From a virus, in IMG/VR virus record IMGVR_UViG_3300027797_000054, positions 1 to 41,587 of that record: 41,587 nucleotides of DNA, one strand, 5' to 3'. The number at the start of each line of letters is the position of its first letter. Position 1 is the first letter of the stretch. Shown in pieces: positions 2,904 through 41,586 of the stretch. The notes beneath the pieces were generated by a model. That model saw only the letters and a program-made list of their open reading frames with translations. It had not been told where the DNA came from and made no database searches. Position numbers and translations under genes: made by a program.

Positions 2904-2926
2904 AGTAGAGAGAAGAAAGAATATAA

Positions 2927-4106: not shown

Positions 4107-4107
4107 A

Positions 4108-4947: not shown

Positions 4948-4951
4948 CACA

Positions 4952-5263: not shown

Positions 5264-5945
5264 CGTATACGTAGACAAAGTGGGTGAACCATCTGCAAAG
5301 ATAAGGCCTCTTGAAATGCAGAGAGACTGGATGCACGACTCTACTTACAACTGTGATCCAATCGGGATGGCTAACACATTGGGTTATGGAATTTACTTTG
5401 ATGAAGACATTTCATTTATTTGGAATGGATCTAGAGGTGAAGGCGCAGTAGGCATCATTGGCTCAGAACATGTTTGGGTTGGAAGAGGAGAGGGCACAGT
5501 AAGTTTTGTAACTAACTTAATCTTTAGAACAGATGAAAATACAAGCGTTCTAACTATGCCTATTCCAAATCAATCAATAGAAGGCGCACAAGTTTTAAGT
5601 ACAATTTTATCTACCTCTCTTTTTACTGGTGTTTTTTCTGTTGTTTGGAAATTAGATACTCCAGACAAAGAATATTTTATACCAGCTGGAACTAACATTG
5701 CTTGCATTCTGCCAATTTCATTGGGAGCTATTCAAGATTCTACTGTTAATATTAATAATACAGAGCCTCCTTTTAAAAGAATACAGGACGGCGTAGAGTA
5801 CATAACTTACTTAAAGGGCCTAAATGCAAAAGGAATCAGACCAAGAATGTATAAAAAGGCTATAGATCATACTGGACAAACAATAGGTAAACATGAGGTT
5901 GCTAAGATTAAACTTCATGTCAATTACAAAGAGGATAAAAAATGA
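5250..5945 (+). CDS. DUF6065-like protein, 231 aa
   Basis: Beta-rich cytoplasmic protein without signal peptide. The arrangement RDWMHD.. then CDPIGMANTLGYGIYF, SFIWNG, PIPNQSIEGAQVLSTI and FIPAGTNIACILPISL recalls DUF6065 proteins, which are often encoded beside oxygenases. Activity is unknown. It sits between two 2OG oxygenases with overlaps at both ends (14 nt and ATGA), so the three are probably co-translated and act on the same substrate. The family call is from memory of the pattern and is moderate. Confidence 0.5.
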   Translation: MYNLDVYVDKVGEPSAKIRPLEMQRDWMHDSTYNCDPIGMANTLGYGIYFDEDISFIWNGSRGEGAVGIIGSEHVWVGRGEGTVSFVTNLIFRTDENTSVLTMPIPNQSIEGAQVLSTILSTSLFTGVFSVVWKLDTPDKEYFIPAGTNIACILPISLGAIQDSTVNINNTEPPFKRIQDGVEYITYLKGLNAKGIRPRMYKKAIDHTGQTIGKHEVAKIKLHVNYKEDKK

Positions 5946-6838
5946 TAACATCTAAAAAAGAAATATACAAAAATATATTTGTTTACAAAAATCAATTTAA
6001 GGATGTTAGCAAAACCTTAGAAATTATTAAGAAATCGGAATATCAAACAAAGGATTTCCATTTAAGTGTGTGGAACCCCTGGGGAGAATTTGGCATGATG
6101 GCAAAAGCTAACCTCATGCCAAGCAAAGAGCAATCAGATGACAACTCACAATATTCTTTAGACCAAAAAGAAATCATAGATGAAATAAGAGAAATTTATT
6201 TCAGTGTTGCTAAAGATTATATGAAGGCCTGCCATAACTCAGTAGATTGGCCACATTTTGTTGACAACTTTGATTTGGAATCAGAAAGATGGGTATTGGG
6301 CTCTATAGATGTATTAAAACATTTTGAAAATCCTGCAAAAAATATTGCAATGCATTATCACACAGATCAAAGCTATGCAAAGCTAGAAGACGACACACAC
6401 AAATTTGTGTTAACTATTTCTATGTACCTTAATGATGATCACGAAGGGGGTGAAATCTCTTTTGTTCATTATGAAAATGGAGATATGAAAGTAACTACTT
6501 TAAGGCCAGAAGCTGGTGACGTAGTTGTATTCCCATCATTTTATCCATACTATCATGGAGTATTACCAATTACAAAAAATGAAAAGTATTTACTTAGAAT
6601 GTTTTATTTCTGGAAATATGATGGCTCAGAAGAATGGTTGGCAAATCAATCCAAATATGGAAAAGACGTTTGGAAGAAAATGGAAGAAAAGCGTTTAGAG
6701 GATTTATATGCTTGGACAAGTGCTCAAGCTTTTTACAATACCAGAAACCAGGTCGAGAACCTTGACAAAAATGTAGTATTTGTGCCAGAAGATTTGCCTT
6801 TAGAAAAAATTACTTATATAAATGGGAAGGATTTATAA
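5942..6838 (+). CDS. 2OG-Fe(II) dioxygenase, 298 aa
   Basis: Second 2-oxoglutarate/Fe(II) oxygenase. Ligands: H140-T-D142 (HYHTDQ), distal H205 (YYHGVLP), and R219 for 2-oxoglutarate. The strand pattern MYLNDDHEGGEISF and RPEAGDVVVFPS is the same as in the 4108 paralogue, but the N-terminal 130 residues differ, suggesting a different substrate. ATGA overlap with the DUF6065-like gene and direct abutment with the next gene place it in one operon. Confidence 0.85.
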   Translation: MITSKKEIYKNIFVYKNQFKDVSKTLEIIKKSEYQTKDFHLSVWNPWGEFGMMAKANLMPSKEQSDDNSQYSLDQKEIIDEIREIYFSVAKDYMKACHNSVDWPHFVDNFDLESERWVLGSIDVLKHFENPAKNIAMHYHTDQSYAKLEDDTHKFVLTISMYLNDDHEGGEISFVHYENGDMKVTTLRPEAGDVVVFPSFYPYYHGVLPITKNEKYLLRMFYFWKYDGSEEWLANQSKYGKDVWKKMEEKRLEDLYAWTSAQAFYNTRNQVENLDKNVVFVPEDLPLEKITYINGKDL

Positions 6839-7174
6839 ATGGAAGATAAAAATACTCTACAGTTAATTAGTGATATTACAGAGTTTAATGACTTACATGA
6901 ATTTATGCATGATGAGCACCTCGATAAGGCTCTAGCTATTGTAGTTAAATTACTGATGAATCCAGATGTGCCTTCTGCCAAAGCGCCACATTTAATTATG
7001 GAGCTTCAGGCAATGTCAACTAAGTTTGCAGTACTTGCTTCAGTATATTCAACAATTGCTAAAGACAAGGCGGGGACAGAAAATAATAATAAGAAAAATA
7101 TTTATTATTCAGTAAAGGAGTCCATAGACAAACTCGTAGATGCACTTAAGTATGTAGTTAGGTATAACTCATAA
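6839..7174 (+). CDS. Hypothetical helical protein, 111 aa
   Basis: Starts immediately after the oxygenase stop codon. Predominantly helical with no membrane segment, and no known catalytic motif seen. The C-terminal helix (KESIDKLVDALKYV) is amphipathic. Its position just before a XapX protein and a Cas4-like nuclease suggests a recombination or replication accessory, but this is only context. Confidence 0.7.
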   Translation: MEDKNTLQLISDITEFNDLHEFMHDEHLDKALAIVVKLLMNPDVPSAKAPHLIMELQAMSTKFAVLASVYSTIAKDKAGTENNNKKNIYYSVKESIDKLVDALKYVVRYNS

Positions 7175-7338
7175 TGATTAAAGACATATTACTTTGTACA
7201 TTAACAGGTGCTTTACTAGGTGGAATATTTGCGGCTTTTAAATTGCCAGTTCCAGCGCCACCATATTTCCCAGCCGTAATGGGAATTGTTGGAATTTGGC
7301 TTGGAGCCGACTTAGTGTTTAGGTTTGTTAATGGCTAG
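7174..7338 (+). CDS. XapX-domain membrane protein, 54 aa
   Basis: Short integral membrane protein with two hydrophobic helices around a conserved FKLPVPAPPYFPAVMGIVG core, the signature of the XapX (DUF1427) domain. The ATG overlaps the previous stop codon (TAATG) and the end overlaps the nuclease start by 8 nt, so it is clearly translated within this operon. Family members occur singly or tandemly in bacteria and have no firmly known function. A XapX gene inside a phage recombination operon is unusual. Confidence 0.85.
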   Translation: MIKDILLCTLTGALLGGIFAAFKLPVPAPPYFPAVMGIVGIWLGADLVFRFVNG

Positions 7339-8119
7339 GGATATTGTAAAAAACCTTAAGTTTAAAAAGCACACTGGAAACTTTTTTGACCCAGAAAAGT
7401 TTGCACAACTACTAGACGAATCTTATAGAAACACTAAGCGTCCAGATGGAGACACTACAAAGAAGTCATTTAGCCCCAGCTCACTTGGATATGGACACGG
7501 AACATGTCCAAGATATTGGTATATGGCATTTACTGGTGCAGTATTCATTGATGATAACGATGCAGTTGCTGTAGCCAACATGGCTCAGGGAACGCAAGCA
7601 CACGAGAGACTACAAAATCTTATTAAGACTATGCCTGAGTGGAGGTCAGAAGAAGAAGAAATTATTAATGAGTATCCACCAATTCGTGGCTTCATAGACT
7701 TGATCATGGAGTATGACGGCGAGACTGTAATTGGAGAAATTAAAACGGCAAAGCAAGAGGTCTGGGATACAAGACAAGCAGAGATGAAGTCTTCTCCAAA
7801 TCATATGCTACAGCTACTTACATACATGAAATTAAAGAACGCAAAAGAAGGTTTCTTCCTATATGAGAATAAGAATACACAAGAGGTTTTAATTATTCCC
7901 ATCTCTATGAATGATAAGAATAAGGCTATTATTGAAGATGCATTTCAATGGATGAGAGATGTCTGGGATAATTTTAAAGAAGGAGATATGCCTAAGCGTC
8001 CAGAAGGTGCAACTAAGTACAAACTTCCTTGCACATATTGTCCAGTTAAAAAAGAATGTTGGGCAAAAGGATCTAATCCTGGAACAGTAGAGATTGATTT
8101 AATGAAGGTTGTAAAATAA
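7331..8119 (+). CDS. Cas4/RecB-like PD-(D/E)XK exonuclease, 262 aa
   Basis: Likely 5'-3' or end-processing nuclease with an Fe-S cluster. C59 in GTCPRYWY and C234, C237, C243 in CTYCPVKKEC are the four cluster cysteines. The nuclease core is H91 (QAHERL), D123 (GFIDLI) and E136-x-K138 (GEIKTA), with a later Q161 (LQLLTY). ATG 7331 overlaps the XapX stop and is preferred to the TTG two codons upstream. No cas1/cas2 or CRISPR array is present, so this belongs to the phage recombination set, not to CRISPR immunity. Confidence 0.88.
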   Translation: MARDIVKNLKFKKHTGNFFDPEKFAQLLDESYRNTKRPDGDTTKKSFSPSSLGYGHGTCPRYWYMAFTGAVFIDDNDAVAVANMAQGTQAHERLQNLIKTMPEWRSEEEEIINEYPPIRGFIDLIMEYDGETVIGEIKTAKQEVWDTRQAEMKSSPNHMLQLLTYMKLKNAKEGFFLYENKNTQEVLIIPISMNDKNKAIIEDAFQWMRDVWDNFKEGDMPKRPEGATKYKLPCTYCPVKKECWAKGSNPGTVEIDLMKVVK

Positions 8120-8397
8120 TGGTATGTCTAAATTCAAAATGCAGTAAGGATTTTATTGCTAAAACACATAACCAAAAGTATTGTTCCGACGAGTGTTGCA
8201 GAATTTCAACAAATAAAAGAATCATGGAAAAGTATTATGAGAAGAAAGCAATTAAGAATGGTGCTCCAAGAAAGTGCAAGGGCTGCAGTGGACTACTAAG
8301 TAGATACAATGATCAGCCCTACTGTGCACGATGCAATAAATTAAAGCAATCAAAGTATAAAAAAGATTTAATGGGAATTATAGATGACATTAGCTAG
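8119..8397 (+). CDS. Cys-rich double zinc-finger protein, 92 aa
   Basis: Two cysteine clusters: CLNSKCSKDF..NQKYCSDECC at the N-terminus and CKGCSGLL..YCARCNKLK in the second half, each fitting a four-Cys zinc site. Lys-rich elsewhere, consistent with nucleic-acid binding. TAATG overlap with the nuclease and 14 nt overlap with the RuvC-like gene. The NQKYCS(D/P)xC pattern is common in small phage and HNH-associated zinc fingers. Exact role unknown. Confidence 0.75.
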   Translation: MVCLNSKCSKDFIAKTHNQKYCSDECCRISTNKRIMEKYYEKKAIKNGAPRKCKGCSGLLSRYNDQPYCARCNKLKQSKYKKDLMGIIDDIS

Positions 8398-8950
8398 CCT
8401 AGTGAAAACAAAAGCAAGTAGGGTATTGGGCATAGATGCTTCAACGAACTCAGTTGCTTTCTGTTTAATGGAAGACGACAAGCCTCTTAAATGGGGAAAG
8501 ATAAATCTTGTTGGCACAGACATTTTTGAAAAAATATACGATGCAAAAGTTAAGATGAGTGTTATGCTAGATGAACTAAAGGCAGATTATATTGCAGTAG
8601 AGGGTGCAGTTCTTGTAAGATCTCCTGATGCTGTAATTAAACTATCTTATGTTTATGGGGTCGTTATAGCAGAGCTAATGTCTACAGGAGCTAAAGTAAT
8701 AACTATATCCCCAACTTCGTGGCAGTCTTATATAGGAAACAAAAATCCAACCAAAGAAGAAAAGCAGGCAGTCCGAATAGCTTATCCAGGTCACGTAGAC
8801 TCATGGTATAAAAACTATATAAGGAATATGAGAAAACAAAGAACTGCAGACTATTTTAATTTAAAGTATGGACTTGCACTAGATGACTTTGATGTGGCGG
8901 ACTCATTTGGAATCGCACATTATGCCAATAAAGAGTTGACAAAGCGATGA
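8384..8950 (+). CDS. RuvC-like Holliday-junction resolvase, 188 aa
   Basis: RNase-H-fold nuclease that would cut branched DNA before packaging or during recombination. Acidic catalytic residues are visible: D18 in VLGIDAST, E73 in IAVEGA, and D170/D173 in DFDVADSFGIA. Size fits RuvC (about 170 aa) with a small insertion. An alternative GTG start at 8400 would remove six residues without touching the core. It overlaps both neighbours and completes the RecA/Cas4/RuvC set. Confidence 0.85.
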   Translation: MTLASLVKTKASRVLGIDASTNSVAFCLMEDDKPLKWGKINLVGTDIFEKIYDAKVKMSVMLDELKADYIAVEGAVLVRSPDAVIKLSYVYGVVIAELMSTGAKVITISPTSWQSYIGNKNPTKEEKQAVRIAYPGHVDSWYKNYIRNMRKQRTADYFNLKYGLALDDFDVADSFGIAHYANKELTKR

Positions 8951-9093
8951 AGCTATATCAAAATAAAGACTGGCTATACAATAGATATATTATACAAAAA
9001 AAGACTATTGTTGAAATAGCCAACGAGTGCCTTGTTTCACATATGACAATACAAAGATATATTGACAAATTTAAATTAAAGGTCAAGCGCTAA
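8947..9093 (+). CDS. Small helix-turn-helix protein, 48 aa
   Basis: ATG overlaps the resolvase stop codon. The whole chain is a homeodomain-like HTH: WLYNRYIIQKKTIVEIANEC then LVSHMTIQRYIDKFKLK, matching small phage HTH peptides linked to terminase or HNH genes. It ends directly at the -35 box of the terminase promoter, so it could regulate that promoter; this is inferred from position. Confidence 0.7.
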   Translation: MKLYQNKDWLYNRYIIQKKTIVEIANECLVSHMTIQRYIDKFKLKVKR

Positions 9094-9122
9094 TTGACAT
9101 TTTAGTTGACTAGAAGTATAAT
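9094..9122 (+). promoter_or_regulatory. Perfect consensus leaderless promoter of terminase operon
   Basis: TTGACA at 9094-9099, 17 nt spacer, TATAAT at 9117-9122: both hexamers match the sigma-70/SigA consensus exactly. The terS ATG at 9129 lies only 6 nt after the -10 box, where transcription should begin, so the mRNA is predicted to be leaderless. The -35 box directly follows the stop of the small HTH gene. Confidence 0.9.
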
Positions 9123-9128
9123 AATTTA

Positions 9129-9668
9129 ATGACAGAAATAGAGCCTTCCGTACACTTTGATAAGATGAACAAGGTTGTTTCCGAGCTTTTAAAAGGAAGC
9201 TCTGCTACCCAAATTGCCACAATAACTGGCATGACAAGAAAAGATGTCTTGGGTTATATAGATGAGTGGAAGGCTGTAGTCCACAACGACACAAATGTTA
9301 GAGACCGTGCTAGAGAAGCCCTTATGGGAGCTGATCAGCACTATGACATGCTAATTAAAGAGGCATGGAAAACTGTAGAAGATGCAGACACTCAAGGACA
9401 GCTAAATGTAAAGTCGGGTACCCTAAAACTAATTGCAGATATAGAGGCTAAAAGAATTGGAATGTTACAGGCGGTAGGCGTACTTGAAAACAATGAGATG
9501 GCATCACAAATATTAGAAAACGAAAGAAAACAAGAGATGCTTGTTGGCATATTAAAAGAAGTCACATCCAACTGCAACCATTGCAAGATAGAAGTTGCCA
9601 AACGATTGTCTCAAATAACTGGAATAGTGGAGCCTATTATTATTTCTCAGGAGGCTTCTGATGCTTAA
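9129..9668 (+). CDS. terS: Terminase small subunit (probable)
   Basis: DNA-recognition subunit of the packaging motor by context: it lies in an operon with the large terminase. The N-terminal third has an HTH-like stretch (SATQIATITGMTRKDVLGYI), followed by long helices suited to oligomerisation, and an NHC pattern near the C-terminus. 179 aa is typical for the family. Predicted leaderless start from the consensus promoter; the end overlaps the following oxygenase by 8 nt. Identification depends on position and HTH, not on a diagnostic motif. Confidence 0.65.
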   Translation: MTEIEPSVHFDKMNKVVSELLKGSSATQIATITGMTRKDVLGYIDEWKAVVHNDTNVRDRAREALMGADQHYDMLIKEAWKTVEDADTQGQLNVKSGTLKLIADIEAKRIGMLQAVGVLENNEMASQILENERKQEMLVGILKEVTSNCNHCKIEVAKRLSQITGIVEPIIISQEASDA

Positions 9669-10260
9669 ACTAGATGGATCAATTAATTTAGGTAAAGATA
9701 TATACGTTTATCCTAATTTTATTTCTGAATTAGAAAGACTTGAAATACTGGAAGACATTAGATCTATCCCTGAAGAAAAGTGGGTTGGACATTTTAATGA
9801 GGGAAGCCAAGGCGCAGAAACTGCACATGTGCCAATACAAAAATTTATAGCAATAAACAAAAGACTTACAGACATGCTTGATAAAGATGTTTATCTTGGT
9901 AGCTCTTTGGCAGCAACAAGAATGAAAATGGGTTGGGTAGGACCTCACCACACAGATAACTTTGATTTCTTAGATGTTATTAAAGCCAGCGAAAAATTAA
10001 AAGAGGAAGAACCTTTTGATATTGCAGAGAACAGTGTTGCTGGATTAATAATGTACTTAAATGATTTTGAAGGTGGAGAGATATACTATTCTAATCAAGA
10101 TGTGACATACTATCCAAAAGCTGGAGACTTAGTGATACACAGCTCACAAGATCACTGTAAGCATCAGGTAAAAGAAGTAAAAAGTGATATAAGATACTCT
10201 CATTCAAGTCACCTATTTAATTTAATAAAGGTTCCAAAAGGATTTAAAAATGTCACTTGA
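9661..10260 (+). CDS. 2OG-Fe(II) dioxygenase, 199 aa
   Basis: Third and shortest oxygenase, inserted between the terminase genes. Fe(II) ligands: H97-T-D99 (PHHTDN) and H168 (CKHQV), with R178 for 2-oxoglutarate; strands MYLNDFEGGEIYY and PKAGDLVIHSS are shared with the other two paralogues. AGGAGG lies 6 nt before the ATG at 9661, one of the strongest ribosome sites in the window. It overlaps TerS by 8 nt and TerL by 11 nt, so it is made together with the packaging motor. Confidence 0.85.
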   Translation: MLKLDGSINLGKDIYVYPNFISELERLEILEDIRSIPEEKWVGHFNEGSQGAETAHVPIQKFIAINKRLTDMLDKDVYLGSSLAATRMKMGWVGPHHTDNFDFLDVIKASEKLKEEEPFDIAENSVAGLIMYLNDFEGGEIYYSNQDVTYYPKAGDLVIHSSQDHCKHQVKEVKSDIRYSHSSHLFNLIKVPKGFKNVT

Positions 10261-12055
10261 TTTTTCAGAGTTTATAGAGATATTAGATGGTGATGAGTTT
10301 GAAGAAAAACCAGTTGACCTACAGACTTTTGTAACTAGCCCAGACTATCTTGGCTTGCCACCTCTTTCAGAAAATCAATATACTCTGATAGAAAGAAGCT
10401 CTCAGATATATAAAGAGTCTACTTTAATAAAGCTATATGGTGAGGAGATGGGCAAAAAACTATTTAAGCAAACCTGTGTTGAAGTTATTGCACAGTTAGG
10501 AAAAGGATCTGGAAAAGATTACTCATCTACAATTGCAGTAGCATATATAGTGCATTTGTTGTTATGCCTAAAAGACCCAGCAGCGTATTATGGTAAGCCT
10601 CCAAGAGATGCAATTGATATTTTAAATATTGCTATCAACTCTCAGCAAGCAAACAATGTTTTCTTCAAGGGATTTAAAATGAGAATTGAAGTCTCGCCAT
10701 GGTTTGCTGGAAAGTATACTGACAAGGCATCAGAAATTAAATTTGATAAATCAATTACAGTTCACTCTGGTCACTCAGAAAGAGAAGCATGGGAGGGATA
10801 CAACGTTCTAGTAGTGATACTTGACGAGATATCAGGCTTTGCAACAGAAAATACCAGTGGACATGATCAAGCAAAAACAGCAGATGCTATATACGATATG
10901 TACAGGGCTTCAGTTGATTCTCGTTTTCCAGACGTAGGCAAAGTAATCTTACTGTCTTTCCCACGCTTTAAAAATGATCCGATACAAAAATTTTATGAAT
11001 CAGTAATAGCGGAAAAACAAACAATTATTAGAACAGAGATATTAAAATTAGATCAAGACCTGCCAGACGGCACAGAAGGAAATGAGTTTGAGGTAGTATG
11101 GGAAGAAGATCATATAGTGTCATACGTTTACCCAAGAGTATTTGCACTAAAAAGACCAACATGGGAAGTAAACCCAACAAAAAAAATAACAGACTTTACT
11201 GTTGCATTTCATAAAAATCCACCAGACGCATTGAGTAGATTTGCCTGTATGCCATCCGATGCTGTAGATGCATTTTTTAAATCTAGATCAAAAATTGAAA
11301 AAGCTTTTAACCAAGCTAGTTTAGCGGTAGACAGCTTTGGAAGATTAGAAGACTGGTTTAAGCCAGAAGCAGATAAAGAATATTTTATACACGTCGACTT
11401 AGCTCAAAAGCATGACCATTGTGCAGTTGCTATGGGGCACGTAAATAAATGGGTGGATGTAAAAGTAACAGATACATATTCTCAGCCAGCACCAATAGTA
11501 GAAATTGATGCTGTTAGATTTTGGACCCCAACACCAGATAAGTCGGTAGATTTTACAGAGGTTAAAGACTATATATTATCTTTAAGGACTAGAGGGTTTA
11601 ATATAAAAGTTTGTACTTTTGATAGATGGAATTCCCATGACATGATGCAGCAACTTAAAACATACGGAATTAATACAGAAATTTTGTCGGTGGCAAAAAA
11701 GCACTATGACGATATGGCTATGGTTGTTTTAGAAGAAAGACTATCTGGCCCCCACATACCCTTGCTTATAGATGAATTACTTCAGCTTAGAATAATGAGG
11801 GACAAGGTGGATCACCCAAGAAAAGGATCTAAGGACTTAGCTGATGCCGTATGCGGTGCTGTGTATAATTCTATTAGCAGGACAAGAATTAAAAGAGATG
11901 AAGAGATAAGAATTCATGACTATGAGTCAATGAGCTACGACAACGATTTTGCAAATAATGCAGATGCTGAAGTTGAGTATGTGCAAAATATGATTAGGGC
12001 ACCAAGAATGCCAGAAAGTTTAGCTAGATCAATAGAAAATATGGAGATAATATGA
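10250..12055 (+). CDS. terL: Terminase large subunit
   Basis: ATPase-nuclease that drives DNA into the prohead. Walker A-like LGKGSGKD (residues 83-90), Walker B VLVVILDE (187-193, catalytic Glu193), coupling region LLSFPRF (about 234-240). The C-terminal RNase-H-like nuclease has D383 in FIHVDLAQKHDH, a second acidic position in CTFDRWNS, and KDLADAV near the end. 601 aa is slightly long for the family. It overlaps its neighbours at both ends. Assignment is firm. Confidence 0.92.
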   Translation: MSLDFSEFIEILDGDEFEEKPVDLQTFVTSPDYLGLPPLSENQYTLIERSSQIYKESTLIKLYGEEMGKKLFKQTCVEVIAQLGKGSGKDYSSTIAVAYIVHLLLCLKDPAAYYGKPPRDAIDILNIAINSQQANNVFFKGFKMRIEVSPWFAGKYTDKASEIKFDKSITVHSGHSEREAWEGYNVLVVILDEISGFATENTSGHDQAKTADAIYDMYRASVDSRFPDVGKVILLSFPRFKNDPIQKFYESVIAEKQTIIRTEILKLDQDLPDGTEGNEFEVVWEEDHIVSYVYPRVFALKRPTWEVNPTKKITDFTVAFHKNPPDALSRFACMPSDAVDAFFKSRSKIEKAFNQASLAVDSFGRLEDWFKPEADKEYFIHVDLAQKHDHCAVAMGHVNKWVDVKVTDTYSQPAPIVEIDAVRFWTPTPDKSVDFTEVKDYILSLRTRGFNIKVCTFDRWNSHDMMQQLKTYGINTEILSVAKKHYDDMAMVVLEERLSGPHIPLLIDELLQLRIMRDKVDHPRKGSKDLADAVCGAVYNSISRTRIKRDEEIRIHDYESMSYDNDFANNADAEVEYVQNMIRAPRMPESLARSIENMEII

Positions 12056-34965: not shown

Positions 34966-35108
34966 TCAATCTAACCAATAGACTTATATGCTATATAACC
35001 AAGCATAAGATACATAAGACCTTTCTGGAGCAATGTCCATATACAGGACAAACTTATCAGCTTTGTACCAGATGTCTAGCCTTGCTACCAACGTACAATT
35101 TAGATTAA
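34962..35108 (+). CDS. Small Cys-containing protein, 48 aa
   Basis: Last plus-strand gene before the convergent junction. QCPYTGQTYQLCTRCLALLP includes Cys-x2-Cys and an earlier Cys, a partial zinc site. The N-terminus is basic and helical. ATGA overlap with the preceding gene. Confidence 0.55.
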   Translation: MINLTNRLICYITKHKIHKTFLEQCPYTGQTYQLCTRCLALLPTYNLD

Positions 35109-35332
35109 ATTAGTCCCAGACTCCTGTATCCCCCCGCCCATAAACATGTCTCATATACCCCTTAGAAGGCTTTATATGTGGAGTAAAGTGGAGCATAGTG
35201 GGGAATATATACTATAGATTGTATTAGATTAGTTATAGTATTATCGACAAAGATACATATGTCTAATTGAACGTTATCATATGATGCGCCGTAATGTCAA
35301 ATTTTCCATTTGGATATAGAGACATGCTGGCA

Positions 35333-35379
35333 TATTTCAGGGATTTTGTCAATAGCCTCGTAAATGGCATAATTTGCCC
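35333..35379 (+). repeat. 47-bp dispersed element, copy 1
   Basis: TTTCAGGGATTTT ... TCGTAAAT-N5-AATTTGCCC with the fixed 18-nt and 5-nt inner spacings shared by the other copies. One of three strong copies. Confidence 0.75.
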
Positions 35380-35490
35380 ACATTTGTCAATAGATTTCTA
35401 TAGGAAATTCTGACATATTCTGGGTATATAATGCTAGATTTAGTATATGTTTATATATAGATCTATATGATTCTATAGAGATTTGTCGAC

Positions 35491-35537
35491 ATTTTCAGGG
35501 ATTTTAATATGTTGATCGTAAAGGAGAAAATTTGCCC
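35491..35537 (+). repeat. 47-bp dispersed element, copy 2
   Basis: ATTTTCAGGGATTTT ... TCGTAAAG-N5-AATTTGCCC. Directly adjoins the DnaA-box-like cluster on its right and the palindrome TGTCGACA-like sequence on its left. Confidence 0.75.
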
Positions 35538-35540
35538 CCA

Positions 35541-35587
35541 TATCCACACACAAAAAATCCACAGGATGTGGATAACCCTGTGGATAA
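35541..35587. promoter_or_regulatory. Cluster of DnaA-box-like sites
   Basis: Two exact TGTGGATAA nonamers (complement TTATCCACA, the DnaA consensus) at 35567-35575 and 35579-35587, 12 bp apart, preceded by ATCCACA-type half-sites near 35542 and 35557 in the opposite orientation. Such clustering is characteristic of DnaA binding at origins. Confidence 0.55.
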
Positions 35588-35669
35588 TTTGGGCCCATAT
35601 ACTAACCAACTAAGTATATGAGATTGTGGCCTATATATATGGAAAGAAAAGAAACATATATATATTTTG

Positions 35670-36089
35670 TTAGATAAATGGATGGCTCATGAGTATTGGT
35701 TCTTTGGTGTTATCATGTAACCAGGAATGCCTATAGCTTTGTTCTTCCACCTTTGGTAACCGCCTGATAATTTTATCTGGGTCCGCTGGAAGTTTGATGT
35801 TCTCCCATTTGTATGTCTTAATTAGTTTATTAAGAGTTTGATTCAGTTCGTTTGCTAAGAACAATCCTTCGGATGTCATTCCTGAGTTATATATACCATC
35901 TTCTGTATCTAATTCATCTGTATGTCTGTTAGCCTGCCACCTAATGATTTGGGCAACAAGTTCCATAATGCGGTCAACTGTATAAAATGGTTGGTCTGTT
36001 AGATATCTTGCCAATATGGCAGGATTAAACCAGTGGTCTTCTGTTAGATTAACTAACTGTTCTGCTACTTTGATTTCTCTTGTCTTCAT
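35670..36089 (-). CDS. Hypothetical protein, 139 aa
   Basis: Last gene of the right arm. Helical protein with LARYLTDQPFYTVDRIMELVAQIIRWQ and a Lys/Pro-rich end. It has its own promoter (TTGACC-N17-TACAAT) with an approximately 30-nt leader and a GGAGGGCGGA ribosome site. No family recognised, though similar small proteins occur in actinophage right arms. Confidence 0.7.
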   Translation of the reverse strand: MKTREIKVAEQLVNLTEDHWFNPAILARYLTDQPFYTVDRIMELVAQIIRWQANRHTDELDTEDGIYNSGMTSEGLFLANELNQTLNKLIKTYKWENIKLPADPDKIIRRLPKVEEQSYRHSWLHDNTKEPILMSHPFI

Positions 36090-36119
36090 CTGTCCGCCCT
36101 CCGCCTTGGGTAACTACTC

Positions 36120-36148
36120 ATTGTACCAAAATATGTGGGGAAGGTCAA
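36120..36148 (-). promoter_or_regulatory. Promoter of the 36089 gene (TTGACC-N17-TACAAT)
   Basis: On the minus strand, TTGACC (complement at 36143-36148), 17 nt, TACAAT (complement at 36120-36125) with extended TGG. The -35 lies inside the terminator stem of the upstream gene. Confidence 0.75.
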
Positions 36149-36167
36149 GGGAAACCTGACCCTCCCC
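36137..36167 (-). terminator. Intrinsic terminator after the Lsr2-like gene
   Basis: Long hairpin GGGGAAGGTCAAGG / CCTGACCCTCCCC with loop GAAA (one mismatch, one bulge), followed on the minus strand by ATATTTT. Its stem also contains the -35 box of the next promoter. Confidence 0.7.
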
Positions 36168-36174
36168 AACTCTA

Positions 36175-36327
36175 TTACTTAGCCTTGCTTGTAACTGGCT
36201 GTGGATCTGTGAAGGTTACGCCCTTGTTGATAGCTTCCTGGATTGCAACCTTAGCTGCGCCTGAGAAACGTCCACGTACACCTACTGTGATGCCTTGAGC
36301 TTTTAGATATTCTCGCTTTGTTGTCAT
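36175..36327 (-). CDS. Small Lsr2 C-domain-like DNA-binding protein, 50 aa
   Basis: REYLKAQGITVGVRGRFSGAAKVAIQEAI resembles the Lsr2 C-terminal AT-hook-like domain (xxWAKxxGxxVxxRGRIxxxxxxAYxxA), with RGR at residues 18-20 as the minor-groove contact. The N-terminal dimerisation domain is absent, so it could bind DNA as a monomer or antagonise host Lsr2. Own promoter TTTACA-N17-TATAAT and AGAAAGGA ribosome site. Codon use is more GC-rich than its neighbours. Confidence 0.5.
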   Translation of the reverse strand: MTTKREYLKAQGITVGVRGRFSGAAKVAIQEAINKGVTFTDPQPVTSKAK

Positions 36328-36353
36328 GATGATCCTTTCTAGATCTTTTATTA

Positions 36354-36382
36354 ATTATAACAGATTTTCACGGGATTGTAAA
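36354..36382 (-). promoter_or_regulatory. Promoter of the Lsr2-like gene (TTTACA-N17-TATAAT)
   Basis: Minus-strand TATAAT (complement 36354-36359, extended TGT), 17-nt spacer, TTTACA (complement 36377-36382). It overlaps copy 3 of the 47-bp element, whose position spans the -15 to -60 region of this promoter. Confidence 0.75.
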
Positions 36383-36410
36383 TACCTGTCGTAAAGCGGA
36401 CAATTTGCCC
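36364..36410 (+). repeat. 47-bp dispersed element, copy 3
   Basis: ATTTTCACGGGATT ... TCGTAAAG-N5-AATTTGCCC. It fills the gap between the upstream gene's stop and the promoter of the Lsr2-like gene. Confidence 0.75.
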
Positions 36411-36548
36411 TTAGTTAGAAACTTGTTCGGCCCTATCTCTAATTAGATTAGATATAAGGTTATGCGCTGCTATGTTCTCTGTTTCAGATCCGCCCCACAG
36501 AAGCTTTTGGGCTTCTGCGAGGACGGAGTTTAGATAGTTATCACTCAT
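36411..36548 (-). CDS. Small hypothetical protein, 45 aa
   Basis: ATG at 36548 overlaps the end of the upstream gene (ATGAGTGA) and is preferred to an upstream in-frame ATG at 36608. Amphipathic helix (DNYLNSVLAEAQKLLWGG) and a second helix (AAHNLISNLIRDRAEQ). Unknown. Confidence 0.6.
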   Translation of the reverse strand: MSDNYLNSVLAEAQKLLWGGSETENIAAHNLISNLIRDRAEQVSN

Positions 36549-36963
36549 CTTCATCTTCGGTCTCCTCATCGTTATCCATATCCTCATCAAGGGAGACGAG
36601 GAAGTCACATTCTCTTAACCAGTCACGCAGTGCTTCATCAAGGTCTTCGACTCCGTACTCAAGACTAAATCCATTCTTATCTGAATCCTCCCAGAACTTA
36701 TCCCAGATTGTTTTTAACTCTAGGCCTTCAGGGAAACACTCATCTACAAAGCCATTGCCGTGCACATCCGTCCACTGTTCGTTCTTGTACCAATTGCTGA
36801 CAATGTCCCAGCACCACAGCCATACAAGGGACGGGAAGACCTTAACGTTCTCTAGGTCTGCAATTAGTTTAGTTAATTGCTCATATACATCATCCCTACG
36901 TGTTGCTTCCTGCAGGTCTAATTGTTCTTTGGACTTTAAAACATCTAATGATTCTATTATCAT
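36541..36963 (-). CDS. Acidic hypothetical protein, 140 aa
   Basis: Helical N-terminus, Trp-rich middle (SLVWLWCWDIVSNWYKNEQW), and a very acidic C-terminus (DEDMDNDEETEDEDE) that could mimic DNA. ATGA-type overlap with the upstream gene and 8-nt overlap with the next. No family recognised. Confidence 0.65.
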   Translation of the reverse strand: MIIESLDVLKSKEQLDLQEATRRDDVYEQLTKLIADLENVKVFPSLVWLWCWDIVSNWYKNEQWTDVHGNGFVDECFPEGLELKTIWDKFWEDSDKNGFSLEYGVEDLDEALRDWLRECDFLVSLDEDMDNDEETEDEDE

Positions 36964-37226
36964 TCCTTTGCTCCAATCGCAAATGAGAGTTGGTATGTTA
37001 GTTCATATAGGGCTACCAAGGTGTCTAGTGCCCCTTCACATTCTGTACGGACCATAGAGTCCATTGCTTCTTCTGATTCTTCTTCCCGTTCGATTGCGTC
37101 TGCTAGTTCCTGCTCGGCAATCAGCATTAGGTTTTTAAGTTCCCCGTGCATGATGTCAAGGCCTGATACTCCTGCATTAACCAAACGTTGTAAATGGGGC
37201 GGGAGCCCAATATCTTCTGAATTCAT
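36960..37226 (-). CDS. Hypothetical helical protein, 88 aa
   Basis: Long acidic helix (LMLIAEQELADAIEREEESEEAMDSM) and a C-terminal helix. Expressed from a TGTCAGTGG-type promoter located in the 3' end of the preceding gene, with a leader containing AACGAAAGGG before the ATG. Unknown function. Confidence 0.65.
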   Translation of the reverse strand: MNSEDIGLPPHLQRLVNAGVSGLDIMHGELKNLMLIAEQELADAIEREEESEEAMDSMVRTECEGALDTLVALYELTYQLSFAIGAKE

Positions 37227-37227
37227 T

Positions 37228-37416
37228 TTATACCCTTTCGTTAGTAGAGTTCATTATATCAGTTGCCACTGACAATAAATGTTCGGTTGCCACAATTTGT
37301 CCTTGTAAGAAATTCCAATCAGGGTTATTAGTATCCTGAATTTCATTCTCATTATCTTGGATTAAAGATATCCTATGTAGTTTAATATACTCTAGGAATA
37401 CAGATGACTTAGTCAT
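37228..37416 (-). CDS. Hypothetical protein, 62 aa
   Basis: ATG at 37416 with AGAAGGA 7 nt upstream is preferred to the ATG at 37497, because the intervening region encodes another gene (37409-37519). Helical, Asn/Asp-rich (NENEIQDTNNPDWNFLQGQIVATEHLL). Its last codons contain the -10 box of the next gene. Confidence 0.6.
   Translation of the reverse strand: MTKSSVFLEYIKLHRISLIQDNENEIQDTNNPDWNFLQGQIVATEHLLSVATDIMNSTNERV
37253..37274 (-). promoter_or_regulatory. TGTCAGTGG-N7-TATAAT promoter (gene 37226)
   Basis: TGTCAGTGG (complement 37266-37274), 7 nt, TATAAT (complement 37253-37258). One of four identical arrangements in the right arm. Confidence 0.75.
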
Positions 37417-37519
37417 GAATATCCTTCTTTCCCGTTTCTCTATTATGTATTGCGGTAACTCCGCAAACACAGTAAAAGTATCCTGGAATGTCATCACATT
37501 CCCAATAATGATTATGCAT
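37409..37519 (-). CDS. 36-aa zinc-binding peptide
   Basis: MHNHYWECDDIPGYFYCVCG, then a basic tail; His and Cys residues fit a small treble-clef site, a pattern common in actinophage peptides. TAATG overlap with the upstream gene; 8-nt overlap with the downstream one. The existence of this frame explains why the downstream gene should start at 37416. Confidence 0.65.
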   Translation of the reverse strand: MHNHYWECDDIPGYFYCVCGVTAIHNRETGKKDIHD

Positions 37520-37695
37520 TAGTCAAAATACCCTTCTGCCCAAAGACCATCAAGGAAATCCTTTGCCATTAACAAATCATTAACTAAGAGTTCTCTGTCT
37601 ACATATGTGGCAGTTGTATTATTAATATAAAAAAGCTTGGCGTCATGAATAGCATTTGTCATGTCATCAAGATCGGATTTAGTATAACCTAACAT
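37519..37695 (-). CDS. Small hypothetical protein, 58 aa
   Basis: AGGAGGA ribosome site before the ATG and TAATG overlaps at both ends. Helix-rich (KSDLDDMTNAIHDAKLFYINN, LLVNDLLMAKDFLDGLW), acidic. Unknown function. Confidence 0.65.
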   Translation of the reverse strand: MLGYTKSDLDDMTNAIHDAKLFYINNTTATYVDRELLVNDLLMAKDFLDGLWAEGYFD

Positions 37696-37922
37696 TATTC
37701 CTCCTCATATTCTAAATAGTATTGGTCACCTTTATTTAAATCATAGAATAGATTAAATCTACCTTTTAAGTAATTGCTGTCGGACATTTCTGCAAATCTA
37801 TAATCTGCAAATAGTTGTCCTTCATCTAAATTAGCATTAACCCAATCTTCGACAAGCATTTCTCCTATCTCAGAATATGTTGCGTCTATTACCATTTGGT
37901 TTTCATTCTCTAGAAAACTCAT
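37695..37922 (-). CDS. Hypothetical acidic protein, 75 aa
   Basis: Start overlaps the Api92-like gene by ATGA; end overlaps the next ATG. Acidic and aromatic (ADYRFAEMSDSNYLKGRFNLFYDL). Unknown function. Confidence 0.65.
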   Translation of the reverse strand: MSFLENENQMVIDATYSEIGEMLVEDWVNANLDEGQLFADYRFAEMSDSNYLKGRFNLFYDLNKGDQYYLEYEEE

Positions 37923-38665
37923 TCGGTTCCCACCTTTCTATATTCGGGTACTTTAGTGTCTAAGTATATCTTATGGGTCTGACAAGTTGCCACAGCCTCT
38001 AGGTCTGCCTCACCTAGCCAATGGCAGTTGCCACAAATCTCACCGCAGTCTGCTTCTTCGCAGTATTCCATTTGGTCAGTTGCATCACAATCACGGCACA
38101 TGTTATCGTATTCTGATTCTGAGATAACTTTGCCACGCAGTAACTCTAACTCTCCACCCCAACCTGTCTCTTCCTCATATGATAAAGTCATAAGTAAACT
38201 AGGGTATTGTTCTGATAGTTTAATTAAGGCTGACATAGGCCGTGACCAAGCAGTATTAAAGTTATAATGGACTACATGGTTCTCACCGTTAGGTGTTTCT
38301 TCCATAGATGTATCTGAGTACTTATCATTATCTGAGATAGCAACATCCCATTTGGTGCCCCACTCACGGACATTAAAGTTATACCAGTCATTGCCCTCAA
38401 ACTTAAACCAGTCTTTCATTGTTTTATCGTGGGGCGGTTGAGAAAGATATTCTTCTTCAGTAACACCATGGTCTAAATAAGAATAGATATTATGAAATGC
38501 AAATACAGGATTAGGATATGTAACTAATTTCTTCTCCTGTTGGTGAGTTTCCATGTTCCATGAGTCATGCACCATTTTAAATGGCTTATTCATTTGAGCC
38601 ATTAAAGATTTAACCTGCTCAGGTGAGCCTTCTATAGTCAATCCGTTATATACCCAATTTGGCAT
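37919..38665 (-). CDS. Api92-like / DUF1281-type protein with zinc cluster, 248 aa
   Basis: MPNWVYNGLTIEGSPEQVKSLM is the typical opening of Api92-like ferredoxin-fold proteins found in phages and plasmids; NFNVREWGTKWDV and FNTAWSRP are further landmarks, and EEETGWGGE precedes the end of that domain. Residues 190-230 add a Cys cluster (CRDCDATDQMEYCEEADCGEICGNC), probably zinc binding. First gene of a right-arm operon from a TGTCAGTGG-type promoter with an AACGAAAGGA leader. Function is unknown for the family. Confidence 0.75.
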   Translation of the reverse strand: MPNWVYNGLTIEGSPEQVKSLMAQMNKPFKMVHDSWNMETHQQEKKLVTYPNPVFAFHNIYSYLDHGVTEEEYLSQPPHDKTMKDWFKFEGNDWYNFNVREWGTKWDVAISDNDKYSDTSMEETPNGENHVVHYNFNTAWSRPMSALIKLSEQYPSLLMTLSYEEETGWGGELELLRGKVISESEYDNMCRDCDATDQMEYCEEADCGEICGNCHWLGEADLEAVATCQTHKIYLDTKVPEYRKVGTE

Positions 38666-38692
38666 AATATATCCTTTCGTTGATATATGCTA

Positions 38693-38714
38693 ATTATACA
38701 ATGGACCACTGACA
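38693..38714 (-). promoter_or_regulatory. TGTCAGTGG-N7-TATAAT promoter (gene 38665)
   Basis: TGTCAGTGG (complement 38706-38714), 7 nt, TATAAT (complement 38693-38698). The leader of about 20 nt contains AACGAAAGGA before the ATG. Confidence 0.75.
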
Positions 38715-38776
38715 TTTGTATAGGGTATATCGTGTGATACACACCACATTCCCCAGCTTTGTGGTCAAGATCACAT

Positions 38777-38823
38777 ATTTTCAGGGCATTTTATATTGAC
38801 GTCGTAAAGCAAATATGATACCC
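38777..38823 (+). repeat. 47-bp dispersed element, copy 4 (diverged 3' part)
   Basis: ATTTTCAGGGCATTTT ... TCGTAAAG-N5-ATGATACCC; identical spacing, last block diverged. Lies between the terminator of the candidate RNA and the promoter of the 38665 operon. Confidence 0.65.
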
Positions 38824-38842
38824 TCTGCTTTTGCGGGCAAAC

Positions 38843-38866
38843 AAAAAACCCCAGCTTGCGCTGAGG
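38843..38866 (-). terminator. Intrinsic terminator with GCAA tetraloop
   Basis: Minus-strand stem CCTCAGC / GCTGGGG (one U-G) closed by a GNRA-type GCAA loop, followed by six T. A strong factor-independent terminator. Confidence 0.9.
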
Positions 38867-38986
38867 CTTGAAGAAAGTAAAGGCCGCTAGGATCTACCAA
38901 CGAAAGTAAAAAGCCCTGCATTGCTTAGCGACTTGGGAGAACCCTGCTAGCCGCACCCATACTCATGAAGAAGGTCCCTAGACCCA
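38843..38986 (-). ncRNA. Candidate structured small RNA, about 143 nt
   Basis: A unit bounded by an extended -10 promoter (38992-39000) and the terminator above, with no convincing gene; the only ORF is 13 codons without a ribosome site. The RNA begins GGAGTGGGTCTAGGGACC, includes GGTC/GACC and GCTAG/CTAGC complementary pieces and TTTACTTTC twice. It does not match tRNA, tmRNA or 6S layouts that I can recognise. May be a phage regulatory RNA or a leader. Confidence 0.5.
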
Positions 38987-38991
38987 CTCCA

Positions 38992-39000
38992 ATTATACCA
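38992..39000 (-). promoter_or_regulatory. Extended -10 promoter of the candidate RNA
   Basis: Minus-strand TGGTATAAT (TATAAT complement 38992-38997). It overlaps the stop codon of the 39358 gene, so the RNA starts right after that gene. Confidence 0.65.
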
Positions 39001-39358
39001 TAACTAGTTGACTATATTTTGTACAGAATTTATCTAAAGATAAACTAAATACAACTGTCTGCAGGTCCTCTTCCATTAATGTAAACGTTTGTTCGGCCCA
39101 ATCAATTACAGGTATCTTGTGCTCGTTGTCTAGAATTCTATTAACACTGAGACCCCAGCCTGTTTCAGCCTTCCAGTCTTCGCCTACAATTCGTGACACA
39201 CAAATACGTGTTGCATATGACTCATCCGTCCACCGTGGCCGTGCAGCCTCTACAGCATTGGCTAAGCGCTCCAACATGCCATGTCCCGCCCAATGTCCAT
39301 ATAGAAAGATAGTATTGTCATTAGATTGTTTAAATCCAAAGTTTGCTCTGTCGCCCAT
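38993..39358 (-). CDS. Actinophage-type hypothetical protein, 121 aa
   Basis: MGDRANFGFKQSNDNTIFLYGHWAGHGMLERLANAV and RWTDESYATRICVSRIVGE form a pattern I recognise from small conserved right-arm proteins of actinobacterial phages; no activity is known. His residues in YGHWAGHG could bind metal. One nucleotide separates it from the upstream gene. Confidence 0.7.
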   Translation of the reverse strand: MGDRANFGFKQSNDNTIFLYGHWAGHGMLERLANAVEAARPRWTDESYATRICVSRIVGEDWKAETGWGLSVNRILDNEHKIPVIDWAEQTFTLMEEDLQTVVFSLSLDKFCTKYSQLVMV

Positions 39359-39359
39359 T

Positions 39360-39551
39360 TTATTCCGCCTTTGTTAGTAGTTGTTCCTGCTCGTAGTTGA
39401 GCAATTGTACCATTTCTTGGGCCCAGTCCACAAGTGGCTCGCCCTGTTCATTTTTATGGTGCCCGCAAAAATAAAGAGATGCTGCATCTTTCTTTGCTTC
39501 CCACATAGCTTGCGCTGCACATTGGTCACACTTAAGCCATTCAGCCATCAT
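39360..39551 (-). CDS. Small zinc-ribbon protein (DUF7455-like), 63 aa
   Basis: KCDQCAAQAMWEAKK and YFCGHHKNEQG give Cys-x2-Cys and Cys-x-His-His ligands, as in small actinobacterial ribbons of the CDRC.A.A...FC.HH type. ATGA overlap with the upstream gene; Met2 may be the true start. Function unknown. Confidence 0.65.
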   Translation of the reverse strand: MMAEWLKCDQCAAQAMWEAKKDAASLYFCGHHKNEQGEPLVDWAQEMVQLLNYEQEQLLTKAE

Positions 39552-39694
39552 AGTTTCCCACCTTCGATCATTTCACAAATGCGGTCAAGAATCCAAGAGT
39601 CGATGTCATTGATATCAATCTCTGATAACTTCTCCATCATCTCTTCACGAGCAAACTTATACCCGTCATCAAAACCATCTTTGTAATCTGACAC
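39548..39694 (-). CDS. Small acidic protein, 48 aa
   Basis: GTG start after GGGAG (5-nt spacing). SDYKDGFDDGYKFAREEMMEKL, a Tyr/Asp-Gly repeat followed by two helices, is a familiar small actinophage layout. Overlaps the next gene by ATGA. Function unknown. Confidence 0.6.
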   Translation of the reverse strand: MSDYKDGFDDGYKFAREEMMEKLSEIDINDIDSWILDRICEMIEGGKL

Positions 39695-39695
39695 A

Positions 39696-39908
39696 TTATC
39701 TCCCTGTATATCCTGTTGGCTCGTAGTCTGAAATATAACTTTCAGTTAAGTTATATTTATCACGAATCTTACTTACCTTCTCTATACTACCAGTTCCAAT
39801 GTTGAATGTCAACGGTGACAATGCAGTTGGGTCAAGCCCAATTATTTGTGCATCCCAATAGGCCCTCTCCATGGAGAGCCTATCAGGAGCGGTAAGTTCA
39901 AAGTACAT
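39696..39908 (-). CDS. Hypothetical protein, 70 aa
   Basis: Soluble, mixed fold (YFELTAPDRLSMERAYWDAQIIG, then FNIGTGSIEKVSKIRDKYN). Its ATG overlaps the upstream stop by one base. Unknown function. Confidence 0.6.
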   Translation of the reverse strand: MYFELTAPDRLSMERAYWDAQIIGLDPTALSPLTFNIGTGSIEKVSKIRDKYNLTESYISDYEPTGYTGR

Positions 39909-40567
39909 TAGTTCTCACGAACATTACATACTTCAGTGTCAACAATTTCAATGTTGCCATTTTGTGAATCAACATACAGGTTGTCGTAAATTTCTTGTTC
40001 TACATCTGTATCTGAATCAGCAAGTAAATCTAATTGAATAGTACCGCTAACCTCAATTGTTGCAGACCACTCAACATCTCGTGTTAACTCAATGTCAAGC
40101 GCTTCAGCAATTGAACGAAGAGTTTCTTGGTCATCTGAATCAGCATATGCTTCAGTAATAATATCTTTGACTGTGTCAATCTTAGATACATACATGTTGA
40201 CTTGTTTCTGTGATTGACGTCCATTATGTAAAGACCATTCAATGCTAGCAACCTTATCTGTTTCATAAGTTGCATCGGAATAGCCGTGGATAACCTTGTA
40301 GGTTACTAATAGATTAGCGTTATATGTATCGGGGACTGTTACTGCAGGTGTTTCTGTTTCCATTGGTTCCTCTTTCGTTTGGGTTGTAGGTTGTATTGTA
40401 GCATGCTCCACTGACACTAATGTGGTCTTACGGCCACACGGGCATGTGAGTTGTGTCACACCTGAAGGAAATCCAAATCCATCAGATGATGTTAGTTCTA
40501 TTAGGCAATCGCATTCATCTGGGTCACAGACAAATGTGTACTTACTTGATATGAGTTCGTTGGTCAT
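39908..40567 (-). CDS. Zinc-ribbon/beta-rich protein, 219 aa, with possible internal gene start
   Basis: ATG at 40567 lies 6 nt after a TACAAT box and is far better than the ATG at 40711, which is inside tRNA-Asp. Residues 1-55 hold CDPDECDC and CPCGR (zinc ribbon); residues about 56-75 are a linker (TIQPTTQTKEEPMETE); the rest (76-219) is a soluble domain repeated in style (NLLVTYKVIHGYSDATYETD; EVSGTIQLDLLADSDTDVEQE). An internal promoter and ribosome site precede Met69 (ATG 40363), so a separate 151-aa product is likely. Function unknown. Confidence 0.65.
   Translation of the reverse strand: MTNELISSKYTFVCDPDECDCLIELTSSDGFGFPSGVTQLTCPCGRKTTLVSVEHATIQPTTQTKEEPMETETPAVTVPDTYNANLLVTYKVIHGYSDATYETDKVASIEWSLHNGRQSQKQVNMYVSKIDTVKDIITEAYADSDDQETLRSIAEALDIELTRDVEWSATIEVSGTIQLDLLADSDTDVEQEIYDNLYVDSQNGNIEIVDTEVCNVREN
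40395..40416 (-). promoter_or_regulatory. Internal TGTCAGTGG-N7-TACAAT promoter
   Basis: Inside the 40567 gene: TGTCAGTGG (complement 40408-40416), 7 nt, TACAAT (complement 40395-40400). It is followed by a leader with AACGAAAGAGGA before the ATG at 40363, the same leader style as the 37226 and 38665 genes. Confidence 0.65.
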
Positions 40568-40573
40568 AGAAGA

Positions 40574-40595
40574 ATTGTACCAGGACCCACTGACA
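40574..40595 (-). promoter_or_regulatory. TGTCAGTGG-N7-TACAAT leaderless promoter (gene 40567)
   Basis: TGTCAGTGG (complement 40587-40595), 7 nt, TACAAT (complement 40574-40579), then 6 nt to the ATG. TTGTAA sits at a 17-nt -35 position. Confidence 0.75.
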
Positions 40596-40604
40596 TTTAC
40601 AAGC

Positions 40605-40651
40605 TTTTCCAGGGGATTTTTTATCCTTCCCGTATGATCAATATCACACCC
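40605..40651 (+). repeat. 47-bp dispersed element, copy 5 (degenerate)
   Basis: TTTTCCAGGGGATTTT ... CCGTATGA-N5-ATCACACCC with the same spacings. Lies just upstream of the 40567 promoter. Confidence 0.5.
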
Positions 40652-40664
40652 GCAACCTTGCGGG
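40649..40664 (-). other. GC hairpin downstream of tRNA-Asp
   Basis: CCCGCAA/TTGCGGG hairpin in the 3' trailer of tRNA-Asp. No T-run follows on the minus strand, so it may be a processing or stabilising structure rather than a full terminator. Confidence 0.4.
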
Positions 40665-40686
40665 CATTGTCGACAAATATACATAG

Positions 40687-40760
40687 CGACCTGTATGGGA
40701 CTTGAACCCACGACCTCTACCGTGACAGGGTAGCGCTCTAACCAACTGAGCTAACAGATC
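40687..40760 (-). tRNA. tRNA-Asp (GTC anticodon)
   Basis: 74-nt cloverleaf on the minus strand. Acceptor GATCTGT/ACAGGTC, D stem GCTC/GAGC, anticodon stem CTACC/GGTAG with loop CTGTCAC, T stem GTGGG/CCCAT with TTCAAGT, discriminator G. No encoded CCA. Lies 8 nt beyond the terminator of the DUF932 gene; no separate promoter is evident, so it may be expressed by read-through. Confidence 0.92.
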
Positions 40761-40806: not shown

Positions 40807-41586
40807 CTAGAATGATTTTACCAACTTGAGAATTTTATTTTTCTCTGCGGTAAGAATTGGGTCAAAGCCTGAAGCACCAGCCATAAGTGTTTCAGAATTG
40901 CCACGACCTGAACGATAGTAATCAAGGCGCTCAGTTAGTGCATTGAACGCACCCCACTTTGTTCCCTTGATTGTAGCGTTAGTTGGTGAGTTATGGTAAA
41001 GGCTATCAAGAAGCACAACCTTGTTCTCCCACTTAGTTAGCGCAACCTTTGCAGAATCTTTGTCGGGCTTTGGATAAATTGCCTGAATCAATTTAGAAAA
41101 TTCTGCGTCAGTAATTGCTTGAGAGTAAAGCGCTTGCGCTTCTTTCTCAAACTCATCAAAGTAACCAAGAGCAAGACCAAGAGTCTCACGAGCAACTTGA
41201 ATGCGACCTTCAACTGATTGCGTGTGGCGAATCTTGAAAGATTGCTTTGCGCTTTTCATTGCAAGGTTAAGAGTGTTTTGGCAAACTACACGAACAGGTG
41301 TAACGGCTGCCTGAACGGCAACAGACCCGTCATGAGATGTCCAAACAATTAAATAAAGTTTGGTTTGGTCATTAGCACCTTGTGGGTCTAATACCATTGT
41401 GCGAGGAATGTCCACAGTTCCGAAAACTACTTTACCCTTTTTTAATGAGCCAGCAGATTCCCAACGGCAAGCAGGGTCGGCGTCATGAATAGCGTCTGCA
41501 AATTGAAATAACTCTTCATTCTGCACAGGCTTGTAACGCTTTCCAACAGTAGCAAGAACATCTGTTCCGCCATTGAATGGATTGTC
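40807..41586 (-). CDS. DUF932 phage/plasmid-type protein (5' truncated by window)
   Basis: The reading frame is open to the right edge, so the start lies outside; the GTG at 41526 is internal (preceding codons read LATVGKRYKP, typical for the family). Landmarks: PVQNEELFQFADAI, VDIPRTMVL, LIVWTSHDGSVAVQAAVTPVRVVCQNTLNLAM, RHTQSVEGRIQVARETLGLA, WGAFNALTERLDYYR. DUF932 proteins are widespread in phages and plasmids with no settled function. About 259 residues are visible; its codon usage is more GC-rich than the left arm. Followed by a strong terminator. Confidence 0.88.
   Translation of the reverse strand, partial: DNPFNGGTDVLATVGKRYKPVQNEELFQFADAIHDADPACRWESAGSLKKGKVVFGTVDIPRTMVLDPQGANDQTKLYLIVWTSHDGSVAVQAAVTPVRVVCQNTLNLAMKSAKQSFKIRHTQSVEGRIQVARETLGLALGYFDEFEKEAQALYSQAITDAEFSKLIQAIYPKPDKDSAKVALTKWENKVVLLDSLYHNSPTNATIKGTKWGAFNALTERLDYYRSGRGNSETLMAGASGFDPILTAEKNKILKLVKSF

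Follow-up and report, generated by a model that had tools for sequence, protein, structure and literature searches.

A conserved three-box intergenic element in the early region of an actinophage lineage, a predicted protein-binding site

Five copies in the right-hand part of the window

The window, that is, the whole stretch of DNA analysed, is IMG/VR record IMGVR_UViG_3300027797_000054 (41,587 nt, 37% GC), a piece of a lytic-looking actinophage lineage with genomes of ~110-117 kb. On the plus strand, three genes (5942-6838, 4057-4947 and 9661-10260) match one endonuclease family, phrog_2297; from 35 kb rightwards, the genes lie on the minus strand. A sequence-only reading of this DNA had described five 47-mers in a single orientation with fixed internal spacing, and all of this was confirmed in the sequence: copies A (35333-35379), B (35491-35537), C (36364-36410), D (38777-38823) and the diverged copy E (40605-40651) all lie on the minus strand, their native reading strand and that of the surrounding genes. 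On this strand, the copies take the form GGGCAAATT-N5-CTTTACGA-N-AAATCCCTGAAAAT. The core and arm described as common to all copies are so only in part: the core of copy E is ATACGG instead of TTTACGA, and at D and E the AATTTGCCC arm has shrunk to ...CCC.

Copies A and B fall in a convergent non-coding junction (34966-35669), where that reading had placed them. Copy A carries TTGACA inside its 3' half, and copy B lies just beyond the terminator of the last early gene, with a terminator-like hairpin (35557-35585, minus strand) upstream that overlaps two TTATCCACA DnaA boxes at 35567 and 35579. Copy C sits over the promoter of a downstream gene for an Lsr2-like protein of 50 aa (36175-36327, minus strand; phrog_6269); this product, of about single-domain size, matches only positions 6-47 of the 188 of phrog_6269. 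The promoter itself is sigma-70-like (TTTACA-17-TATAAT with a TG before the -10; 36354-36382, minus strand), the 3' box of copy C falls within its spacer, and the orthologues of copy C largely retain both hexamers. Copy D has a terminator-like hairpin upstream (38846-38869, minus strand) and, 62 bases downstream, the TGTCAGTGG box of a TGTCAGTGG-N7-TATAAT promoter (38693-38714, minus strand). Copy E has a tRNA-Asp on one side and, on the other, only 9 bases away, the TGTCAGTGG box of a TGTCAGTGG-N7-TACAAT promoter (40574-40595, minus strand) with an ATG six bases later, which suggests a leaderless start. An upstream arm, GCCCGCAA, accompanies copies D (38831-38838) and E (40658-40665), both on the minus strand.

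Promoters of the TGTCAGTGG class are found in the window at 40595, 40416, 38714 and 37274, all on the minus strand; the one at 40395-40416 is located within a long open reading frame (39908-40711), which may have an internal start. Palindromes similar to CRP/GlxR boxes (TGTGA-N6-TCACA type) adjoin early promoters at 38733, 38760 and 40445, and the second of these, TGTGATCTTGACCACA (38760-38775, minus strand), directly follows copy D.

Distribution and anatomy of the element

Scored with a leave-one-out matrix, copies A to D reach 24-37 bits, and each ranks fourth among all window positions on both strands, outranked only by the other copies that trained its matrix. Copy E scores 14.1 bits, weak when taken alone and backed by a positional orthologue in 77 of the 80 related loci that were anchored; the best of the non-copy sites in the window reaches 2.7 bits. 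A search with the exact core pattern matched 12 viral contigs, of which ten are true relatives and two (L004 and L011) are chance matches. Anchoring on the neighbouring gene at 40807-41526, which matches phrog_1221 and whose relative in L086 matches Pfam DUF932, yielded the 80 related loci. In the relatives, the refined matrix found 1030 sites with 429 distinct sequences; 718 hits exceeded 10 bits, and none exceeded 11 bits in the reversed-sequence null. The copies are co-stranded in all 159 multi-copy loci. Their places relative to the anchor are orthologous across ~11 kb in the 80 anchored loci, at about -440 (79 loci), +875 (77) and +2700 (about 73), with further groups at about -2.3, -3.6, -4.7, +5.1 and +6 to +6.3 kb. 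Altogether, the freshwater lineage contains nine positional groups, of which seven stand before early genes; the freshwater habitat is suggested by low G+C and the tie to actinophages, not by sample records. The window contains five of these groups and stops before the next one, so that its five copies reflect its being a fragment. Near-complete relatives (97-117 kb) have 5-10 pattern matches each, in a single early-region cluster of ~10-12 kb, and in relatives L005, L007 and L012, a second tandem copy lies 2-3 bp beyond copy B. A host-derived element was considered and rejected: the pattern occurs in 78 viral stretches versus four unrelated hits in 257 Gb of bacterial genomes, a chance level.

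The element is thus real and conserved across relatives; our literature searches found no description of it. Chance repetition in AT-rich intergenic DNA might be invoked given the low GC content of the window and the divergence of its two outlying copies, D and E, but the leave-one-out ranks, the reversed-sequence null, the positional orthology and the one-strand rule refute it, leaving a probability that is virtually nil. The two outcomes that the sequence-only reading had named as fatal to it, chance expectation and absence from related phages, did not materialize, and the matrix scan that it had proposed placed the copies above chance in the window and showed them to be present in related phages.

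On the minus strand, the consensus is GGG-N13-TTACG-N15/16-CCCTGRAAT, with an A-rich run ahead of the CCC. The conserved columns form three boxes over 46-47 bp; the constant length proposed earlier is therefore not strict across relatives, although this frame is kept, and in 178 of 179 cases TTACG and CCCTGRAA are 15 or 16 apart. The interior is highly variable and, in some groups, includes DnaA boxes or CRP-like palindromes: TTATCCACA DnaA boxes occur within copies of groups F, G, H and I as well as in the terminator before B, and are absent from copies A to E. In many copies of the D to I type, GCCCNCAA is found a few bases ahead of the GGG, and GCCCNCA is typically located 7-9 nt ahead of it; in relatives, TGTGA-N6-TCACA directly follows many elements. 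In the early intergenic DNA of L063, L082 and L086, several elements are flanked by repeated GGCGTGTCG / CGACACGCC and TTGACAA-N-TCAAGCT. These flanking repeats contain GACAC, the known WhiA motif.

Because GGG and CCC face each other at the ends, with a weak excess of base pairs on the same diagonal and strong stems in some F, G and H copies, we considered a structured RNA or a single-stranded DNA hairpin closed by GGG/CCC (an attenuator, a processing site or a hairpin promoter). Compensatory changes in a common stem were not found: when position 38 is not C, position 3 is still G in 46 of 47 distinct sequences. The median folding z is -0.01, and the strong stems are mostly due to inverted DnaA boxes. 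Since the ends do not covary, the element is not a common RNA hairpin, and an alternative 5' hairpin (CCC..GGG versus GGG..CCC) was rejected as well, the variable base of GCCCnCA not pairing consistently with the base before GGG. Furthermore, the D to I copies lie upstream of a promoter, and the search for Rfam families yielded no match apart from the tRNA-Asp, with one sub-threshold hit elsewhere disregarded, and thus lends no support to a small RNA. A hairpin of any of these kinds is highly improbable. The protein recognition proposed by the sequence-only reading, in contrast, gains from the uncompensated ends, from the fixed geometry across many divergent sequences and from the recurrence of the 3' half with the same 15/16 spacing in Streptomyces phages.

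The terminal repeat of Streptomyces phages

The 3' half of the element (TTTACGA ... AAAATT CCCGGA) recurs in ten genomes of Streptomyces phages of the Boydwoodruffvirinae (Samistivirus, Karimacvirus and Tomasvirus). Within their first 900 bp, these genomes hold 4-6 TTTACGA, all on the minus strand and none on the plus strand, and this cluster sits at the end of a direct terminal repeat of ~11 kb. When the 3' part of the freshwater matrix (columns 25-47) is scored on the Streptomyces units, it peaks at register -1/0, with a mean best score of -0.95, random places giving -21.5 (sd 1.6). Another peak, only a little lower, lies a helical turn further upstream (-10/-11) and casts some doubt on the exact 3' register in these phages. 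The GGG half gave no peak at the Streptomyces register in the same scoring. In EGole, the terminal repeat spans 11,341 bp (1-11341 identical to 124313-135653) and carries a minus-strand early array with an Lsr2-like gene and a relative of the window gene at 40807-41526. The first 1.2 kb of EGole contain TTTACGA units, two of them in a 35-bp tandem (606-675). Directly before its first early promoter stands a related site, TGTACGA..GAAAATTCCCGGAA, which has counterparts in Karimac and Jay2Jay. Elements of the window style are absent from the early intergenic units of EGole (best score -3.8 bits). The early intergenic DNA of EGole (L173) has a different repeated palindrome, similar to TGTCGGGCCCGGACA, before several early promoters.

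The right-hand repeat copy of EGole forms the same convergent junction as the window and, by this comparison, 34966-35669 is probably the boundary between the unique region and the terminal repeat. Another possible role for the element is at the genome end, as a site bound at the terminal repeat during DNA entry, the start of replication or packaging. The first ~900 bp of the repeat hold nearly all Streptomyces-phage copies, the most divergent phages retain mainly a piece of ~100 bp there, and DnaA boxes are found both in the interior of F, G, H and I copies and in overlap with the terminator before copy B. However, seven of the nine freshwater positional groups precede early genes spread over ~11 kb, the strand bias tracks transcription, and DnaA boxes are present in some copies and not in others, making a role at the genome end improbable.

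Predicted function and likeness to known systems

In the relatives, the start of TGTCAGTGG is exactly 16 bases ahead of that of TATAAT, and a TG precedes the -10, at 305 distinct sites; the peak at this spacing comprises 334 cases. The earlier placement of copies near promoters was upheld, with C overlapping a sigma-70-like promoter and D and E lying upstream of promoters, whereas the suggestion that RNA polymerase itself recognizes the element applies only to copy C and, weakly, to copy A, which has TTGACA but a poor -10. Sigma-70 hexamers spaced by 16-18 bp within or over the element are clear only in C; a separate class of promoter follows the copies of groups D, E, F, G, H and I, and the others have no downstream gene. 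The copies occupy three kinds of places: over a promoter (C and probably A), in the gap between a terminator and a promoter (D to I), and beyond the last early gene (A, B and the Streptomyces cluster).

Very probably, to judge from the sequence patterns, the element is a protein-binding site governing early transcription. Its sequence, geometry, orientation, placement and positional conservation are observed; beyond these, we infer binding by a protein, a phage-encoded origin of that protein, and repression or blocking rather than activation. The reading we favour, with confidence about evenly divided, is that the copies are directional, double-stranded operator or roadblock sites for one putative regulator of early transcription. 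Each copy would be an asymmetric recognition site for a single sequence-specific protein, with contacts to GGG, TTACG and CCCTGRAAT spaced by constant intervals. The bound protein would cover the promoter at copy C and probably at A; at D to I, it would sit between the upstream terminator and the next promoter, shielding the latter from read-through or damping it; and at A and B, early transcription would be halted at the module end, near the genome end. Directional repression or blocking appears most likely because all copies point with early transcription.

The placement of D to I, not over core promoters, together with a weak periodicity of ~10.5 bp in distance, would also suit an upstream activating site, at which a bound phage or host activator would aid RNA polymerase at TGTCAGTGG-N7-TATAAT promoters from the same helix face. 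TGTCAGT is found at most 200 nt downstream in 595 of the 1030 copies, and the distances between element and promoter cluster near 19, 29, 72, 82, 93, 103, 114 and 135 bp (p about 0.007 for a 10.5-bp period over 35 modes; 0.025 within groups). A 9.0-bp period is equally strong, however, so the phasing is suggestive only and was rejected as proof of an activator, and groups G (65), F (58-63) and part of I (75) are out of phase. Moreover, copies C and A overlap core promoters, and no gene that could be activated follows A, B or the terminal cluster of the Streptomyces phages, which favours an operator or roadblock. An activator explains only the terminator-promoter placement, whereas directional repression or a roadblock accounts for all three placements and fits the strict orientation; we consider activation rather unlikely.

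For a single protein, 47 bp and three contact zones make a long site, and the CRP-like or DnaA boxes embedded in several groups mean that more than one factor may act. A rather unlikely extension is that large, terminally redundant actinophages share a new early regulator across the lineage and that the element is its binding scaffold, copied by the freshwater branch before nearly every early operon, the interior holding host DnaA and CRP/GlxR sites; if so, the state of the host would feed into the takeover genes. All five tested relatives and EGole encode WhiB and an Lsr2-like protein. To our knowledge, neither is known to need such a site. In the relatives G001, G003 and G004, an open frame of 51 codons weakly matches sigma-70 region 4, at a score below threshold. 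The five near-complete relatives and EGole yielded no HTH_3 repressor, integrase or resolvase, which makes the usual lysogeny repressor unlikely; the phages therefore appear to be lytic, and the site would act in shutting off early genes, not in immunity.

Little is known of how large actinophages control early takeover, and the environmental phages studied here are from uncultured systems. The half-element in the cultured Streptomyces phages EGole, Karimac and Tomas makes the questions of the binder and of early switch-off testable, and the TGTCAGTGG promoter class provides a second, equally testable handle. With its box near -30 at a fixed distance from an extended -10, this class resembles the geometry of T4 MotA-box middle promoters, a likeness that concerns the neighbouring promoters and not the 47-bp element.

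Among known systems, terminal repeats carrying early genes, as in BE-cluster Streptomyces phages, T5 and SPO1 (PMC5764925, PMC8612146), come close. Cluster BE1 phages have ~11 kb repeats that carry lsr2 (PMC5764925, PMC8612146), and EGole shares with the window lineage the minus-strand early array, lsr2, a relative of the gene at 40807-41526 and the 3' half of the element, which in EGole lies at the end of the terminal repeat; for the window lineage, the repeat itself is only probable. In contrast to the freshwater lineage, the Streptomyces phages have no GGG half, nor do they carry a copy ahead of each early operon. A close parallel in behaviour is with the stoperators of Cluster A mycobacteriophages (L5/TipsytheTRex repressor sites), which have a 13-bp consensus and are bound by a monomeric repressor of temperate phages with an HTH and a stoperator domain (PMC9283540). 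The element described here differs in spanning 46-47 bp in three boxes within a single early region, and in belonging to phages in which a search of the five near-complete relatives and EGole turned up no HTH_3 protein, integrase or resolvase, although other repressor folds are possible. It thus lacks two defining features of stoperators, the ~13-bp consensus and the temperate phage with an HTH repressor, yet it resembles them in its arrangement: many asymmetric, intergenic sites per genome, non-coding in the window, located at promoters and in intergenic spaces, with an orientation that follows transcription (159/159 loci).
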